Assembly (NCBI GenBank): GCA_018895075.1
Contig: JAHIOW010000027.1
Span: 1-42,969 of the forward strand
Source of the DNA: Candidatus Omnitrophota bacterium
GTDB taxonomy: Bacteria > Omnitrophota > Gorgyraeia > Gygaellales > Profunditerraquicolaceae
Direction of reading: 5' to 3'
DNA: 42,969 nt
Shown piece after piece: positions 32,390 through 42,676 of this stretch. The notes beneath the pieces were generated by a model. It did no database searches, had not been told where the DNA came from, and worked only from the letters and a program-made list of their open reading frames with translations. Position numbers and translations under genes: made by a program. The stretch's first letter is position 1, and the number at the start of each line of letters is the position of its first letter.

Positions 32390-35300
32390 TTAATCCTTTT
32401 TTGCCTTTCGGATTTCTCTATGATATTCCTGCAGTGATTTTACCTGCAAGTCTTTTTTTATTAATTCTGCTATGCCGCTTACTGTTGCCTGGGCCCCGGA
32501 TATTGTGGTGGTGTAAGGTATATTATATAAAATGACCTGTGAGCGAATCTTGACCTCATCTTGTCGCGGAATTCTACCAGAAGGCGTGTTTATAACTAAG
32601 CTCACTTTCCTATCTTTCATGAGATCTAAAATATTCGGCCTACCTTCAGTAATCTTGGATAATACCTTAACCGCAACACCATTCTTTTCCAAGGCCACAG
32701 CCGTGCCTGAGGTAGCATAGATATGAAATCCTAACTCTTTGATTTTCTTGGCGATCAATACAATCGCCCTTTTATCTTTGTCCCTAACCGAGATAAAAAC
32801 ATTGCCCTTGGTAGGTATTTTTTGCCCGGCAGCCAACTGGCTCTTTATATAGGCGCGACCAAAATCCTTATCCACGCCCATAACCTCTCCTGTGGACTTC
32901 ATTTCTGGCCCTAAGATTATATCTACTCCTGGAAAGCGATTAAAGGGAAATACTGATTCCTTAACCGATACATGCTTGGGTATAATCTCACGGGTAAACC
33001 CCAAGTCCTTAAGTTTCTTACCCAATAAAACCTTGGTGGCCAATTTCGCCAAAGGCACACCTATGGCTTTAGAAATAAAGGGTATAGTCCGTGAAGCGCG
33101 GGGATTAACCTCTAATACATAGACCTCGTTATCTTTAACTGCATATTGCACGTTCATCACGCCCTTGACATTTAATTCTCTTGCCAATTTATAGGTAGCT
33201 ACTCTAATTTTATTTAATACGCCTGCGGATAATGTATGGGTAGGAAGGACCATGGCTGAATCTCCGGAGTGTACCCCTGCCTCCTCAATATGCTCCATAA
33301 TCCCGCCGATAACAAAGGTGGTACCATCGCCGATCATATCCACGTCCACCTCAATAGCGTCTTCCAGAAATTTATCAATAAGTATCGGGTGCTCCCCGGA
33401 AACACTGGCTGCCTCGGTGATAAACCTCTCCAGCGTCGAGGCATCGTAAACAATCTCCATCGCCCGACCGCCCAACACATAAGAAGGCCTGACTAGAACC
33501 GGATAGCCTATTTTTTTGGCTACTGCCTTTGCTTCGGCAAAGGTAAAGGCAGTACCATTATCCGATTGTAAAAGATTTAGTTTGTGCAATAAATCTTTAA
33601 AACGCTGTCTGTCTTCGGCAATATCAATATTATCTGCGCTTGTACCCAGGATATTAACCCCGGCATCACGCAGGGGAATCGCCAGGTTTAAAGGAGTCTG
33701 GCCGCCAAACTGCACAATCACTCCCGCTGGTTTTTCTAAATCGATTATATTTAAAACATCCTCTAAGGTTAAAGGCTCGAAATATAATCTATCGGAGGTA
33801 TCATAATCAGTGGAGACGGTTTCGGGATTACAATTAATCATCACGCTTTCTATGCCTTCTTCTTTTAAGGCATAGGCGGCATGACAACAACAATAATCAA
33901 ACTCAATCCCTTGGCCAATACGATTTGGTCCGCCCCCTAAAATAATCACCTTTTTATTCTTACTTACCCTGGCTTCATCCTGGGTCTCATAGGTAGAATA
34001 AAAATAAGGTTTTTGGGCATCGGTTTCTCCCGCGCAGGTATCTACTAACTTATAAACTGCCTTTATATTGTGCCGTTTGCGAAAGCAACGCACATCATCT
34101 TCCCTAGTGTTTAAGAGATAGGCAAGTTGCCGGTCAGAAAAACCGTTTTTCTTTGCCTCCTTAAGCAACTCCAAGGGAAGCTCTATTGCTTTCTCTGGCT
34201 GATTATTTCTGAAACCCTTTATTTTCTTTTCAAGCTCTACCAGTTGTTTCATATTATCAATAAACCAGGGATCGATCTTAGAAAGATTATGTATCTGTTC
34301 AACGGACAAACCTACCTTTAAGGCGTATCTGATAAAAAAGAGCCTCTCATCATTAGGAATCCGAATCTTGTCCTTAATCAACTGCAGCAAAGAGTTGCTT
34401 GGTTTATCAAGCATCTCATCAGTAATCTTATCTTTACCATCGCAGCCAAAACCAAAGCGCGAAATCTCTATGGAGCGTATTCCTTTCTGTAAGGCCTCCT
34501 TAAAATTTCTCCCTATAGACATTGCCTCTCCTACTGCTTTCATAGAAGTATTGAGAACTCGCTGTGCCTGAGGGAATTTTTCAAAGGTAAATCTGCAGAT
34601 TTTAAAAACGCAATAATCTACTGTGGGCTCAAAAAAAGAAGCTGTCCTGCCGGTTATCTGATTTATAACTTCAGGTAAAGTTAATCCCACTGCCAATTTA
34701 GTGGCCACGCGGGCAATGGGAAAACCCGTAGCCTTAGAGGCAAGCGCAGAACTACGGGAAAGCCGAGGATTAACTTCTATAATCACAATACGGCCATTAC
34801 CGGGATTCTGGGCGAACTGTATATTTACCCCTCCGCCTGTTACCCCTACTTTTCTAATGATTTTTTTACAAAGATTGACAAAATCTGTATATTCCTGGGT
34901 GGTGAGTGTCTGGGCAGGAGCAACTACAATACTGTCGCCGGTATGTACGCCCATGGGGTCTACATTTTCCATAGAAGTAATCATAATCACGTTATCTACC
35001 GAGTCGCGCATCACCTCAAATTCTATCTCCTTCCAGCCTAAAACCGACTGCTCTACCAGAATTTGATGCACCGGGCTGGCAGCCAGTCCTTTTTGTAAGA
35101 ATCTTTCTAATTCTACTTTATTGTAGGCAGTGGCACCACCTAAACCCCCCAGACAATAGGCAGGGCGTAAGATTAAAGGAAATCCTATCTTAAGGCCAAT
35201 GCGCATGCCCTCTTCTACGCTGGTAGCTATACCGCTTTTCGGAACATCTACTCCGATCTCCTGCATCGCTTTTTTAAAAAGAAGCCGGTCTTCTGCCCGC

Positions 35301-35671
35301 GATATTGCCTCAACCGAGGCGCCAATAGACTCTACGCCATATTTCTTAAGTATGCCCTCCTTCATTAAAAAGTAAGCTAAGTTAAGGCCGGTCTGGCCAC
35401 CCAAGGTAGGCAATATCGCGTCTGGCCGTTCTTTTTTAATAATCTCTTCTAATACCTCGGCTGTAAGAGGCTCTATATAGGTAACATCTGCCATGTCAGG
35501 ATCAGTCATAATAGTGGCGGGGTTAGAATTTACCAAAATAGTAAAATAGCCTTCTTCTCTTAAGGCCTTGCAGGCCTGAGAACCAGAGTAATCAAATTCA
35601 CAGGCCTGGCCAATGATTATTGGGCCGGACCCAATCATCAGTATCTTTTTTATATCATTACGTCTTGGCAT
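32390..35671 (-). CDS. carB: Carbamoyl-phosphate synthase large subunit
   Basis: ORF 1093 aa; duplicated ATP-grasp; [44 protein letters not shown]. Confidence 0.97.
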
Positions 35672-35683
35672 CCTATTACTCCT

Positions 35684-36763
35684 TTAATTTAACAATTTAA
35701 TAAATTTTTTAAACACTCCGTTTACCTCATTGAAACCAGGGCTGACCGGATAATATTGCACCCCCAGCAGTTTGAATTTTTTGCTTTCCATTTCTTCTAC
35801 CGTCTTGTCATTCAGATGATAGCCGGTCATTGCGACATCTTTTATTTTGCTCAATGAGTTTTTTTCTACTACATAACCATGGTTCTGCGTGGTAATCTCG
35901 GCTTTATATGAACCTGGTTGAGCCACCGGATAGTTTACCCCCCGATGGCCTAATTTCATCTTTTGTAATTTTGCACCCAAGGCAGAAGCTAATACCTGAT
36001 GGCCTGTACAGATACCTAATATAGGTAATCTACCAATTAAACTTTTGGTATTCTCCGCCACTTCTTCTAAGCTTACGTCTTCTTCCGGGCCGCTAGAGAT
36101 AATTAACCCGTGAGGCTTAATCTTCATAATCTCATCGGGCTTAGTATTATAAGGCAGCAAATTTAAGACAATCCCTAGAATCTCTAACTGCCTGATAATA
36201 CTATTGGTTATGCCTAAATCTAACCCTGCTATTTTATATTTTGCTTTTTTACTGCCGATAAGCGTAGGTTTATCTACGGAAATCTTCTTTATAAAATCTC
36301 TGGCCTGGCTCTTTCTAAAGGCCTCTATTTTAGATAATAGTTCTTTTGAGCCGCGGTTAGACGTAGAAATTATACCGAACATCTCGCCGTTATTGCGCAG
36401 ATGCACTGCTAGGGTACGTGTATCTACTCCGTTAATCCCTGCTACACCTTGTTCTTTAACAAAGGCATCAAGGCCAGACTTTGCCTGCCAGTTGGAATAC
36501 ATGCGAGATTTTTCCTTAATTGCCAGACCGCTAATCCAACAGCGAGAAGACTCATTAAACTTAGGGCTAATGCCATAATTACCGATTAAGGGGTAGGTAG
36601 GTACAAGTATCTTTCCGGCATTAGCCGGATCGGTCATCATCTCCTGATATCCCACTACCGCGGTATTGAGAATCACCTCACCAATTACCTCTTTTTCTGA
36701 CCCGAAACCTTCACCATTGAAACTTGTTCCATCCTCTAACATCAAAACTGCTTTCATTATCAC
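35684..36763 (-). CDS. carA: Carbamoyl-phosphate synthase small subunit (atypical glutaminase site)
   Basis: ORF 359 aa; GYQEMMTDPANAGKI, GINGVDTRTLAVHLR, PILGICTGHQVLASALGA; C-terminal QYYPVSPGF. Confidence 0.92.
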   Translation of the reverse strand: MIMKAVLMLEDGTSFNGEGFGSEKEVIGEVILNTAVVGYQEMMTDPANAGKILVPTYPLIGNYGISPKFNESSRCWISGLAIKEKSRMYSNWQAKSGLDAFVKEQGVAGINGVDTRTLAVHLRNNGEMFGIISTSNRGSKELLSKIEAFRKSQARDFIKKISVDKPTLIGSKKAKYKIAGLDLGITNSIIRQLEILGIVLNLLPYNTKPDEIMKIKPHGLIISSGPEEDVSLEEVAENTKSLIGRLPILGICTGHQVLASALGAKLQKMKLGHRGVNYPVAQPGSYKAEITTQNHGYVVEKNSLSKIKDVAMTGYHLNDKTVEEMESKKFKLLGVQYYPVSPGFNEVNGVFKKFIKLLN

Positions 36764-36768
36764 TCTCC

Positions 36769-37221
36769 TTATGTTAAGAGCTCTCTTACCTTCTTTATTG
36801 CTTCTTCTACTGTCTTTACCTTAATTACGCCTTTTATGTCCCAAGAATTGAGACTGATTACTGGTATACCAAACTGTATACAATAGGCAATCTCGGAAAG
36901 CGTCCCTGCTTCCCCTGGAAGCGCTACTGCTACATCAGCGCTTTTAACTACCAAGACATTCCTGGCTAATCCCAGGCCTGTAGGAATAACTATATCTACA
37001 AAAGGATTGGCATCATTTTTATTGTAACTGGGTATAATGCCTATGGTTAGCCCATCCCCTACCTTAAACCCCTTACAAACCGCCTTCATTGTTCCACTTA
37101 AACCCCCACAAACAAGAATATCTACCACTTTCGCCAGATTTTTACCTAAATTATGGGCTATTTGCTCCACTTCCCTACTACAACTATGCCCACCTATAAC
37201 ACTTACTATCTTCTTGCGCAT
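36769..37221 (-). CDS. TIGR00725-like / SLOG (LOG-related) family protein
   Basis: ORF 150 aa; VSVIGGHSC, ILVCGGLSGTMKAVCKG, VALPGEAGTLSEIAYCIQFGIPVI. Confidence 0.8.
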   Translation of the reverse strand: MRKKIVSVIGGHSCSREVEQIAHNLGKNLAKVVDILVCGGLSGTMKAVCKGFKVGDGLTIGIIPSYNKNDANPFVDIVIPTGLGLARNVLVVKSADVAVALPGEAGTLSEIAYCIQFGIPVISLNSWDIKGVIKVKTVEEAIKKVRELLT

Positions 37222-37255
37222 TTACTTATCTCCCAATCAACCCTTATCTTGTCGC

Positions 37256-37304
37256 GGGACAGTCATTCTTTACAAGGGACTGTCCCCGAAGGGGACTGTC
37301 CCTT
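37256..37304. repeat. REP-like element with GGGACTGTCCC modules
   Basis: gggacagtc at 37256-37264, then aagggactgtccccGAAggggactgtccctt at 37274-37304 (direct and nearly perfect inverted repeat). Confidence 0.75.
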
Positions 37305-37345
37305 GCCGTCCCTGCTGGCAACGCTTTGTTCTATCTTTAGATAAA

Positions 37346-37417
37346 TGCGCCTGGACAGAGTCGAACTGTCACACATGGCTCCGGAGGCCATTGCGCTATC
37401 CATTGCGCTACAGGCGC
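37346..37417 (-). tRNA. tRNA-Arg (CCG), CCA not encoded
   Basis: Minus strand GCGCCTG...ATGGC-CTCCGGA-GCCAT...AGTTCGACTCT...CAGGCGC-A. Confidence 0.93.
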
Positions 37418-37432
37418 GTGATTTCCTTATTA

Positions 37433-39910
37433 TTAAAACAAGCTTAACTGCTCTTCGTCTTTACCATGCCTTTCTTGTGGGTCAAAGATGGCAATCTTAC
37501 CATATTCACCATCAAAACCCGCCTGGATATTAACCTTGCCTTGCCGCACCCTTAATATACCTTCTGCAACCCGAGGAGGCATTCCTTTAAGTAAATCTTC
37601 CTTGGTCGCTTTAAGCAGGATTTCAAACTCGGTACCAAACTTAGCTATCATACTACGATAATCTCTCTCTACAGCCATTGAACCCTTACCTACACCTTTT
37701 GCCCCGGCAATAATCTCATCCAAAGGAATAAGATTTTTATAAGGGATAAAGTCGGCAGGCATGTATCCTTCTGGCCGATCCGCCAACTGCTCTACCCGGT
37801 TCATCACGCCCACAGTTACCGGCTTGCCACATTTAGGGCACCTGCCTTTATTTTGTTTAGTTTCTCCGGGAGATAATCGCATACCACAAAGCCGGTGCCC
37901 GTCATAATGATACTTGCCTTCTTCGGGGAAAAACTCAACGGTATATAAGAACCTCTTTTTATCTTTGGTCTTTAGAACCTCTCTGATGGTTTTATAATCC
38001 AACGCGCAATCAAAGACATTTGCCTCGCGGCCTATCTTAGAAGGTGAGTGGGAATCGCTGTTTGATATCAAGGTAAATTTATCTAAAGCGGATAACCTCC
38101 AATTTAAGGGAGGGTCGCTTGAAAGGCCCGTTTCTAAAGCAAATATCTTTGGTGTCTGTTTTTCAAAGCAATCTTCGATGCGGTCAAAACCTGACATAGA
38201 ACCGAATAAAGAAAACCAGGGTGTCCAACAATTATGAACCGTGGCGAATTCACAAACATAAGAATTATCTTCATCTACTTCTAAATTATAAACAACACCA
38301 TTGTATCTTTCTTTAGAAATATCCCTAACGGGTAAATATACATATTTATTATCCATCCAGCCATGTCTTGTTGACAATTTTGTTCTAAACTTCTTAAATA
38401 CGCTATCTTTTAATAAATTAAATTTATCTTCAAAAAAAGAAAGGTTATTAAAGTGGAACATATCGTGCTGGGCTAATATTTCTCTGGTTCCTATAAAATG
38501 CTTGCCACGATTCTTATGTTTTTTCGTAGAATCTAAGCCAATAGACGGAATGATGCCCAACCGTAAAAATAATACTTTCATTTGATTCATTAATGGTCTC
38601 GATGATGTGTATCCTTTATCCCCACGCCACCAGCCTTTAATAGTTTCTACCTGTTTTTCAAGCGGCAAATACAGCATCCAATTCGGTAAAGATTTAGAAA
38701 ATGCTTTTTTATTTCTTGTGTTTATATAGAAGAGTTTACTGAACAGGTTATATAAAACCTTTGAATAAAATATCAGCTCTATTCCTTTTATATCCTTTTT
38801 AATCTGAATTTTCGATAATTCTATGCCAAATATTTTTTGAATTAAACTTATTACATCATTTATGTATTCTTCTTCGTCTTCTAAAAAACAAAATGAGATG
38901 CAATCTCTACTATTTGTATACCCTTCAGAAATAAAATATCCGGCCAAGCGACAGAAATCTTTATCTATTTCAATAATATTTTTAACAAAGCGTGTTCGGC
39001 TACCTTTATAAGCAATTTTCCCTTCCTTAAAAACAAATTTTCCTTTTAATAGCCTGCTAATCTCTATTCTCGTATTGTATCTAATTTCATTATTGAACCG
39101 CGGAAAAACCAAAGCATCATTTATTTTTATATCCTTGGCCTGAACCCACTCTGGCTTATATTGCATAAAGTATTTTTGCTTGCAGCCTTTATTTTTTAGC
39201 TGAGAGCACCTTGGCATGCAAAAAGTCCCTCTTGAGGCGCAGTATTTATGTGTTTTGATTATATAGAACGGGTGCTCTGCTGTGGTTTTAATACCTTCTC
39301 GGAAATAATAAGGTTTGATATGAAAAATCTCGCCATTATAATCTCTTTTAAATAATTCTGTCACGCTTCTTAGCCGCATTCTATGAGTATATACATAGTC
39401 CTTTTTTGAAATTTCTTCTATTATTTTTAATCCATTGTTGGTATGCACAAATGTCCCGGGTAAAAGACAATGTGCTGGTACAACCATACAATTCTCATCA
39501 ATATCAAAGATAATCCGCGCCAGTTCTTCGGCATCCATGCCTAATATCGGCCGGCCGTCGGAAGCTAAATTTCCGTAACGGGCAAGTGTTTCATTTATTT
39601 TATCAGTAGTTTTAAAGGAGGGGCTGAACACCATATTATGGATACGGTAACCGCGTCCGTTTTTAGAATAGATACTGCTGATCTCTGCGGTTAAGATAAA
39701 ATAGACATTCCGATATTTAAACAGGCCGTTCCCCAAATCTTCTAAATGCGCCTTTACTTCCTCCAGCCACAGATGATGCGTAAAATCACCTGTCCCCATC
39801 AGGGTTACGCCCTTTAATCCTGCCCATTCCGCAATATGGGCAATATCCATATCCCTGCTTGTTGCCCGGCTGTATTTAGAGTGAATATGAAAATCAGCAA
39901 TAAATTTCAT
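37433..39910 (-). CDS. PHP-domain protein (TIGR00375-like) precursor interrupted by an intein
   Basis: ORF 825 aa; extein ADFHIHSKYSRATSRDMD, GTGDFTHHLWLEEVK, VPAH/CWTPWFSLFGS, FALETGLSSDPPLNWRLSALDKFTLISNSDSHSP, zinc-ribbon CGMRLSP...CPKCGKP. Confidence 0.93.
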   Translation of the reverse strand: MKFIADFHIHSKYSRATSRDMDIAHIAEWAGLKGVTLMGTGDFTHHLWLEEVKAHLEDLGNGLFKYRNVYFILTAEISSIYSKNGRGYRIHNMVFSPSFKTTDKINETLARYGNLASDGRPILGMDAEELARIIFDIDENCMVVPAHCLLPGTFVHTNNGLKIIEEISKKDYVYTHRMRLRSVTELFKRDYNGEIFHIKPYYFREGIKTTAEHPFYIIKTHKYCASRGTFCMPRCSQLKNKGCKQKYFMQYKPEWVQAKDIKINDALVFPRFNNEIRYNTRIEISRLLKGKFVFKEGKIAYKGSRTRFVKNIIEIDKDFCRLAGYFISEGYTNSRDCISFCFLEDEEEYINDVISLIQKIFGIELSKIQIKKDIKGIELIFYSKVLYNLFSKLFYINTRNKKAFSKSLPNWMLYLPLEKQVETIKGWWRGDKGYTSSRPLMNQMKVLFLRLGIIPSIGLDSTKKHKNRGKHFIGTREILAQHDMFHFNNLSFFEDKFNLLKDSVFKKFRTKLSTRHGWMDNKYVYLPVRDISKERYNGVVYNLEVDEDNSYVCEFATVHNCWTPWFSLFGSMSGFDRIEDCFEKQTPKIFALETGLSSDPPLNWRLSALDKFTLISNSDSHSPSKIGREANVFDCALDYKTIREVLKTKDKKRFLYTVEFFPEEGKYHYDGHRLCGMRLSPGETKQNKGRCPKCGKPVTVGVMNRVEQLADRPEGYMPADFIPYKNLIPLDEIIAGAKGVGKGSMAVERDYRSMIAKFGTEFEILLKATKEDLLKGMPPRVAEGILRVRQGKVNIQAGFDGEYGKIAIFDPQERHGKDEEQLSLF
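38231..39469 (-). mobile_element. Intein (413 aa) with LAGLIDADG-type homing endonuclease domain
   Basis: Begins CLLPGTFVHTNNGLKIIEEI (block A), GIKTTAEHPFYII (block B), LAGYFISEGYT (block C), IKGWWRGDKGY (block E), YNGVVYNLEVDEDNSYVCEFATVHN then C+1 (blocks F/G). Confidence 0.93.
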
Positions 39911-41187
39911 TTTGAAGCGGCGTAAACAATCTCACCGCCTAAAATTGTGTATTCTACAATGCCTTTTAATTTCCGTCCAAGAAAAGCCGAATTTCTCGAT
40001 TTCGACCGGATGCTATCTTTATCCACGAGCCATTCTCTATCAGGTGAGACTACAATAAGGTCTGCTGTTTTTGCGGCTCTTATTGTACCTTTATCTATTC
40101 CTAAAATCTGGGCGGGGTTCAATGCCAATTTCTTAACCAGTTCTGTCCAGTCTAATATTCTCTTATCCACAAGCTCAGTGATACTTACTGCCAAGAGGGT
40201 CTCTAAGCCGATTGTCCCAAACTCCGCGCGCTCAAACTCTATATCCTTTTCATTATCAGTATGCGGTGCGTGGTCAGAGGCAATAACATCAATTATCCCT
40301 TTTCTTAATCCTTCTTTTATTGCCTCTGCGTCTTTTTTGGTTCTTAAGGGCGGATTTACTTTCATGTTTGTGTTATAATCCAGCACCTCTTCCTCGGTTA
40401 AGGCGAAATAATGCGGCGCGGTCTCAGCAGTAACCTTTATACCTTTTTGTCTTGCCCGGGCAATTATATCCACCGATTCAAGACAGCTGACATGGGCAAT
40501 ATGTATACGGGCACCTACTTTTGCGGCAAGTCTGATGTCGCGTTCAACCCTTTTATATTCGGATTCTCTGGATACCCCTCTTAACCCCAGCCGCGTTGAA
40601 ACAACTCCTAGATTTATTACGCCATTACGACTAAGCCCCTTATCTTCACAGTGGCAGATTGTCAATATATCTGTATCTTTGGCTTTTTTCAGCGCCTTTA
40701 AGAATAAGTCTTCGGTATCTACGGAAGAGCCGTCATCAGAAATAGCTACTGCACCCTGTTTTTTAAACATAGGGATGTCGGCGAGCGCTTGACCCTGACG
40801 GCCCTTGGTAATGGTAGCACTGATAAAGACATTGGTGTGGGCGGTTTTTTTGATTATATCTTTTAGTAACCCCATTGCCTCTTTAGAATCAATAGCGGGG
40901 TGGGTATTCGGCATGGCCAAAACCGAGGTCACCCCGCCTTTTAATGCCGCGCTTGTACCGGTTGAAATCGTTTCCTTGTCTTCTCTACCTGGCTCTCTTA
41001 GATGTACATGCATATCTACCAGGCCGGGCATAACTATTTTTTCGGTGGCATCGACTATCTGGTCTGCCTGCACCTTAAGATTCTTAGCAATCTTGGAAAT
41101 CTTGAAATCCTCTACAAGGATATCCGAGATTTCATTTAATTTATTGGCCGGATCAACGACCAGGCCGTTTTTTATCAGTATTTTCAT
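39907..41187 (-). CDS. pyrC: Dihydroorotase
   Basis: ORF opens at 41199; VDMHVHLREPGREDKET, HIAHVSCLESVDII, ASDHAPHT. Confidence 0.95.
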   Translation of the reverse strand: MKILIKNGLVVDPANKLNEISDILVEDFKISKIAKNLKVQADQIVDATEKIVMPGLVDMHVHLREPGREDKETISTGTSAALKGGVTSVLAMPNTHPAIDSKEAMGLLKDIIKKTAHTNVFISATITKGRQGQALADIPMFKKQGAVAISDDGSSVDTEDLFLKALKKAKDTDILTICHCEDKGLSRNGVINLGVVSTRLGLRGVSRESEYKRVERDIRLAAKVGARIHIAHVSCLESVDIIARARQKGIKVTAETAPHYFALTEEEVLDYNTNMKVNPPLRTKKDAEAIKEGLRKGIIDVIASDHAPHTDNEKDIEFERAEFGTIGLETLLAVSITELVDKRILDWTELVKKLALNPAQILGIDKGTIRAAKTADLIVVSPDREWLVDKDSIRSKSRNSAFLGRKLKGIVEYTILGGEIVYAASK

Positions 41188-42121
41188 ATTTTTTATCATG
41201 CCCCTGGGACACCAAAAACAATACCGCCATCCTTACGGCAATGCCATTGGTGACCTGCTCTAATATCACCGAATTTAGCCCATCAGCAACTTCGCTGGAT
41301 ATCTCAATGCCGCGATTAAGCGGACCAGGATGCATCACCAGAATCTTCTTTTTTAACTTTGCTATTCTTTCTTTCGTAATACCGAAATTCTGGAAATATT
41401 CTATGTGGGTAGGAAATGCCGCCCCTTCATCCCGCTCAAACTGCATCCTTAAAACATTTACTGCATCCGCGTTATACAGGGCCTCATCTATATCGTGGGT
41501 TACCGAGACCCCCGTTTGTTCTATGCCCGGGGGGATGAGCATCCGGGGTGCACAAACTATTACCTTGGCGCCTAACTTGGTTAAGCCCCAGATATTTGAA
41601 CGCGCCACCCTTGAATGGGCAATATCCCCTACTATAGCCACATTGAGGCCTTGAATCTTGCCTATCTTTTCCTTTAAGGTAAAGATATCTAACAGCGCCT
41701 GGGTGGGATGTTCATGCCAACCATCCCCGGCATTAACTACACTGATATCCAGATGGCGCGCAAGCAGCTGGGCTGCGCCTGAACTATTATGCCTTAACAC
41801 AACAATATCTGCCTTAAGTGCCTGGATGTTCCTGCCTGTATCTACCAAAGTCTCGCCCTTGCGTACACTAGAGGTCTCCACGGCAATGGTAATCATATCT
41901 GCTGATAATCTCTTTGCTGCCACCTCAAAGGAAATCCGGGTGCGTGTGGAAGGCTCATAAAATAGATTCACCACCGTCCTGCCGCGCAGTGCCGGAACCT
42001 TTTTAATCTCTCGGGTAGAGATCTCCTTAAAAGACTCTGCCGTAGTCAGAATAAGCTCCAGCTCCTCTTTGCTTAACTCTTCTAGACCCAATAAATCTTT
42101 TCTCGTCCAGCTTATAGGCAT
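41153..42121 (-). CDS. pyrB: Aspartate carbamoyltransferase catalytic subunit
   Basis: ORF 322 aa; LFYEPSTRTRISFEVAAKRLSAD, VVNAGDGWHEHPTQALLDIFTL, VMHPGPLNRGIEI. Confidence 0.97.
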   Translation of the reverse strand: MPISWTRKDLLGLEELSKEELELILTTAESFKEISTREIKKVPALRGRTVVNLFYEPSTRTRISFEVAAKRLSADMITIAVETSSVRKGETLVDTGRNIQALKADIVVLRHNSSGAAQLLARHLDISVVNAGDGWHEHPTQALLDIFTLKEKIGKIQGLNVAIVGDIAHSRVARSNIWGLTKLGAKVIVCAPRMLIPPGIEQTGVSVTHDIDEALYNADAVNVLRMQFERDEGAAFPTHIEYFQNFGITKERIAKLKKKILVMHPGPLNRGIEISSEVADGLNSVILEQVTNGIAVRMAVLFLVSQGHDKKYENTDKKRPGR

Positions 42122-42124
42122 AAT

Positions 42125-42676
42125 TTACTGCGTTTGCATAATTACCACTTCATCTTTACCGTCAGTTTCTTCTAAGCGCACCTCTATAGTTTCATTTTTG
42201 GCAGTAGGGATATTTTTACCGACATAATCTGTGCGTATGGGTATTTCCCGATGGCCCCTATCTATCAACACTGCCAATTGTATTGACTTAGGCCTGCCGA
42301 AATCAACCAATGCGTCTAAAGCAGAGCGCACGGTGCGACCGGTGTATAAGACATCATCTACTAAAACAATATTTTTATCCGTAATATCAAAATCTATTTC
42401 CGTCTTATGCACCACCGGCTGGGAGGCAACGAGAGTAAGGTCATCGCGATATAGGGTAATATCTAAGATTCCCACCGGGATACTCTCTCCCTCGATCCTA
42501 TTAATGTAATCGGCTAAGCGCTTAGCTAAATAAGCACCTCGCTTTCTTATTCCTACAAGACATAAATCTTTTGTGCCTTTGTTCTTCTCGAGAATCTCAT
42601 GGGCAATGCGTATGAGGGTGCGGCCCAGTGTATCTTTATCTATTATCTTTGCCTTCTCTCTCATCTTTGACCTCAA
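42125..42676 (-). CDS. pyrR: Bifunctional pyr operon regulator / uracil phosphoribosyltransferase
   Basis: ORF 183 aa; [60 protein letters not shown]. Confidence 0.96.

Follow-up and report, generated by a model that had tools for sequence, protein, structure and literature searches.

The solved structures of endonuclease Q (EndoQ) come from Pyrococcus and Thermococcus (PDB 5zb8, 7k30) and contain no intein. In Pfu EndoQ the PHP residues are D6, H8, H10, E76 and H139 together with an SDAH motif, and in the early view few bacterial genera had the enzyme (PMC4357722). Archaeal EndoQ binds PCNA via its C-terminus and bacterial homologues have clamp-binding motifs (PMC4858679). DNA-repair proteins are usual hosts for inteins (PMC5874633). 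Two inteins of known structure, PI-PkoII (PDB 2cw7) and the TliVMA intein (PDB 7qss), consist of a Hint splicing domain with an embedded two-motif LAGLIDADG endonuclease and have a penultimate His and a terminal Asn. For haloarchaeal MCM inteins, some MCM-d recipient alleles carry the non-nucleophile Pro at the residue following the insertion site (+1), which must be co-converted to Ser, and a few such MCM-d invasions are described (PMC10643990).

The window analysed here is a 42,969-nucleotide stretch from a Candidatus Omnitrophota MAG of 1.05 Mb (88% complete). Its genes at 32390-42676 are arranged in the order pyrR-pyrB-pyrC-endoQ-TIGR00725 (LOG-like)-carA-carB. A pyrC match was present in 118 of 146 endoQ loci, a count that includes repeats of one allele at several loci and many short stretches; among the loci with flanking sequence, pyrC lies immediately upstream of endoQ in nearly all. 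endoQ thus belongs stably to the pyr operon of this class, across Omnitrophota. The pyrimidine setting to which the initial annotation had drawn attention reflects this conserved position and does not make the host a pyrimidine enzyme.

The host had been described as a PHP-domain protein of the TIGR00375 family, interrupted next to a conserved PHP His. The His and the family held, whereas the generic PHP protein gave way to EndoQ. The joined extein matches the solved Pyrococcus EndoQ on both sides of the join in two collinear stretches (E 5.6e-50), and the likeness to PDB 5zb8 and 7k30 extends over the whole length, the PHP ligands, the four-Cys zinc site and the C-terminal clamp motif. D6, H8, H10, E76, H147 and an SNSDSH motif are present, and a segment reading LCGM...GRCPKCGKP, with its CPxCG, aligns with the zinc site of Pfu EndoQ. 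A C-terminal Q[LM]xLF occurs in 90 of 112 complete EndoQ proteins of the class. The unspliced precursor scored 237.1 bits against TIGR00375, under the curated cut-off of 326.6; intein-free relatives of the class also fell below it (about 120-224 bits), therefore this model is narrower than the bacterial branch concerned, and our assignment rests on the match to the PDB sequences. The host is EndoQ, and its predicted activity is nicking 5' of deaminated bases. An endoQ gene was present in 89 of 98 relatives and, across the class, in 287 of 384 genomes. A PHP host in a pyrimidine cluster had been thought less common for an intein, but as a DNA-repair endonuclease EndoQ belongs to the replication and repair class in which inteins usually reside.

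The endoQ gene holds an in-frame insert whose extent, proposed as a 413-aa intein, was borne out to the base, on the minus strand (Table 1). It covers ORF residues 148-560, runs from C1-LLPGTF to VHN before Cys+1, and its removal from the 825-aa precursor leaves 412 aa. Every block that the initial annotation had reported was found (A, B, C, E, F, G), and the splicing residues are invariant in five inteins at this site. The insert matched Pfam Intein_splicing at 38.8 bits (cut-off 35.8) and LAGLIDADG_3 at 28.3 bits (cut-off 22.5). The features of class 1 inteins are present: the block A nucleophile C1, T63-A-E-H66 in block B, the VHN/C end and intact intein-free homologues. Both LAGLIDADG motifs keep their acidic residues (E and D), and motif 2 lies in the LAGLIDADG_3 match region, with residues 287-324 just downstream. 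Dozens of intein-free homologues align with the joined exteins from end to end, so the failure to align that was to speak against an intein was not seen; EndoQ proteins of related genomes, at up to 82% identity to the joined extein (residues 1-412), are unbroken across the join. The GC content is 31.6% in the intein versus 42.9% and 43.5% in the extein parts. No direct or inverted repeats were found at the insert boundaries, as expected for homing. The insert is thus a real, full-length intein of class 1 type, presumed to be self-splicing.

Table 1. Features of the intein-bearing endoQ locus in the window.
Feature	Position	Strand	Supporting observation
endoQ with in-frame intein	37433..39910	-	ORF for an 825-aa precursor, 412-aa EndoQ after predicted splicing; PDB EndoQ E 5.6e-50
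N-extein, residues 1-147, ends ...VPAH	39470..39910	-	H147 = Pfu EndoQ H139
Intein, 413 aa, C1 to N413	38231..39469	-	five inteins at same site aligned
Intein C1, block A nucleophile	39467..39469	-	invariant in site-a inteins aligned
Block B TTAEHPF, intein residues 62-68	39266..39286	-	T63 and H66 invariant
Cys4 module C77-x6-C84-x3-C88-x7-C96, splicing half, putative zinc site	39182..39241	-	all four Cys invariant across five EndoQ inteins
LAGLIDADG motif 1 LAGYFISEGY, acidic E182	38918..38947	-	E182 invariant; aligned with PI-PkoII VSEGY
LAGLIDADG motif 2 IKGWWRGDKGY, acidic D	38609..38641	-	conserved in four complete site-a inteins
Blocks F and G (YNLEVDEDNSYVCEFATVHN), penultimate His and terminal Asn	38231..38290	-	site-a alignment, Pfam
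Cys+1 codon (TGT) of C-extein	38228..38230	-	Ile in most intein-free homologues
C-extein, residues 148-412 of spliced protein	37436..38230	-	PDB EndoQ match
C-terminal QLSLF, sliding-clamp-binding-like	37436..37450	-	Q[LM]xLF common in class
pyrC (dihydroorotase)	39907..41199	-	stop overlaps endoQ start (ATGA) at 39907-39910

The EndoQ intein shares with PI-PkoII and the TliVMA intein the Hint domain, the embedded two-motif endonuclease and the terminal His and Asn, but it differs from both in host and site and in having a Cys4 module, which lies between block B and block C, and it is smaller than PI-PkoII. PI-PkoII was the only solved chain matched by the sequence profile. AlphaFold2 gave a pLDDT of 49 for the intein (5-row alignment) and 44 for the precursor, which is too shallow for geometry; a Foldseek search with this low-confidence intein model matched the TliVMA intein, PI-PkoII and PI-SceI, the first two among the top matches, which supports the LAGLIDADG/intein class only. 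The nearest inteins seen outside EndoQ reside in IscU/NifU, DnaE and DnaG of Omnitrophota, hosts different from EndoQ, with 27-30% identity over the full length and Cys+1 in all. The Cys4 module, which may bind zinc, is present in the DnaG and DnaE inteins and absent from those in IscU. A viral or phage source was considered and found unsupported, as viral contigs yielded one 26%-identical relative and phages only matches below 30% identity.

Further inteins were observed in these genomes. A family and profile search of the window genome recovered at least four more, in GyrB, GyrA, AhcY and DnaG, at three loci (L097, L098 and L171), with GyrB and GyrA adjacent. That in AhcY (S-adenosylhomocysteinase) lies within the GYGWC/GKG motif region and that in DnaG in a zinc-finger Cys. 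IscU/NifU-type Fe-S scaffold proteins from several families of the class carry inteins of about 370 aa directly before the conserved cysteine of GNPV/CGD (seven loci), where the intein is more than twice the size of its host. One DnaE locus (L116, genome G428) has an intein with the same Cys4 module, and a second intein begins downstream in the same ORF (GFNK/CVVGSTEI).

The insertion point between H147 and Cys+1, hereafter site a, is occupied in six EndoQ alleles from four families of the class: the window genome (G000), G071, G415, G426, G031, which is cut by a contig end, and G162, whose C-extein is cut. All named records with this intein are Omnitrophota. In the EndoQ tree the carriers are scattered, each nearest to intein-free alleles, and a single clade for them was rejected (p-AU 3e-5).

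We examined the +1 residue in 105 intein-free alleles, from which alleles with an intein at a second site (site b, below) were kept apart. Ile is found in 85 and Cys in 2, and the remainder have Ala, Val, Met or Leu; Ser or Thr occurs in none, which leaves 103 of the 105 without any splicing nucleophile. The equivalent residue in Pfu EndoQ is Ala140. By comparison, +1 is Cys in all five readable invaded alleles (Fisher p 2e-7, relatedness ignored), and Cys goes with the intein in all four of the independent contrasts between sisters that lie on supported branches, a number too small to reach significance (p 0.125). A change from Ile to Cys takes two base changes. Because the invaded alleles all have Cys+1 while the intein-free ones nearly all lack a nucleophile, the intein appears to move with its own +1 Cys codon by co-conversion of flanking DNA. 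The +1 Cys at site a thus itself appears to be derived, a point that, like the second insertion site, lay beyond the initial annotation. In a weak nucleotide test for a co-converted tract, the excess similarity around site a did not exceed that in the last codon bin. Ala at -2 (PAH versus PGH) also accompanies the intein, but not beyond phylogeny. The two intein-free alleles with Cys, G027 and G349, read PAH-Cys-WTPWF, and they may either bear the scar of a lost intein or be permissive by chance.

The same distribution might be read as one ancient insertion that descended vertically, with many losses and no recent homing, an ancestral Cys+1 having become Ile after loss. Identities at site a are 52-75% among inteins and 57-84% among exteins; since the inteins are no more alike than the exteins, recent transfer is unproved at this site and an old presence with many losses would be possible. 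The parallel divergence of inteins and exteins and the Cys kept in G027 and G349 are what this reading would predict. However, it needs dozens of losses, nearly all followed by a two-base change from Cys to Ile (or to Ala or Val), in sister pairs such as G415 and G396 too, and it conflicts with the rejected monophyly of the carriers' exteins and with clear transfer at site b of the same gene. We consider a single ancient insertion unlikely, and repeated homing with acquisition of Cys+1 remains our preferred explanation.

Site b follows ETGLS (ETGLS/S), 37 residues beyond site a and four past the counterpart of Pfu E167. It resembles site a in lying in the same host gene close to a conserved PHP residue. 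Its intein, of 361-363 aa (CYDEKTEVLT...CGN/S), was found in six alleles, and the native Ser+1 is kept in 104 of the 105 intein-free alleles. These inteins are 69-75% identical in hosts whose exteins are 54-60% identical; as the inteins are more alike than the exteins, horizontal transfer between families is clear at this site. The site-b inteins are less related, and the site-a profile at E<=1e-20 did not recover them in the same genomes. No allele with inteins at both sites was seen.

The position of site a, immediately after the conserved H139/H147, also raises the idea of a splicing switch, proposed in the initial annotation, in which the intein would be kept as a regulator of EndoQ. The ligand H147 would be split from the active site in an inactive precursor, and zinc, redox state or DNA damage would trigger splicing, perhaps via the Cys4 module, whose four invariant Cys lie in the splicing half. 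Other systems provide known examples of conditional splicing (review, PMC5874633; DnaB and zinc, PMC7360933). Against such a switch, EndoQ is intein-free in most relatives, close sister lineages included, the Cys4 module recurs in the phylum's DnaG and DnaE inteins and is therefore not specific to EndoQ regulation, and the homing endonuclease looks intact. Because the presence is sporadic, the endonuclease apparently intact and the recurrence scattered, homing alone explains the data, and a switch is possible without being needed. We judge it improbable, and just as improbable that the Cys4 module, by binding zinc or sensing oxidation, holds a precursor with a split PHP ligand until the nuclease is needed. 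That the intein is decayed, unable to splice or an assembly artefact is scarcely credible: the window by itself is one MAG and the Pfam score barely exceeds its cut-off, but four complete independent alleles have open frames of 825-854 aa and two more are cut by contig ends, every splicing residue is invariant and stops are absent.

Judged from sequence, the locus very probably holds a homing intein that combines ordinary splicing, LAGLIDADG homing and obligatory acquisition of Cys+1. Translation would yield the 825-aa precursor; excision would proceed through an acyl shift at C1, transfer to Cys+1 and cyclisation of Asn413 aided by the penultimate His, and ligation of VPAH to CWTPWF would give the 412-aa EndoQ, which would cleave DNA on the 5' side of deaminated bases. 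The LAGLIDADG domain would cut intein-free endoQ at site a and repair would copy the intein in, together with a tract that replaces the +1 codon for Ile (in some alleles for Ala, Val, Met or Leu) by one for Cys. Without Cys+1 splicing would stop and EndoQ would be lost, so the tract would have to bring the Cys codon. A precedent is haloarchaeal MCM-d, where some recipient alleles also need co-conversion of a +1 Pro (PMC10643990). In that system an unsuitable +1 residue is the mark of a resistant allele and co-conversion is rare, whereas at EndoQ site a nearly all recipients are unsuitable.

A search of open-access literature turned up no description of an intein in EndoQ or in Omnitrophota; these sequences may be contained in large surveys that are unpublished or exist as databases. 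The kind of element is known, and what is new is its occurrence in EndoQ, the pair of insertion sites and the fact that hardly any intein-free allele has a nucleophile of its own at site a. EndoQ is widespread in Omnitrophota and tied to the pyrimidine operon, in contrast to the early view of a few genera (PMC4357722), and it joins the intein hosts, with two points of insertion that both lie close to conserved PHP residues. Since nearly every recipient at site a lacks a +1 nucleophile, each successful invasion there must have altered the host protein sequence beside its metal site. Site a therefore offers a clean natural case of an intein colonising a position where simple insertion would abolish splicing.
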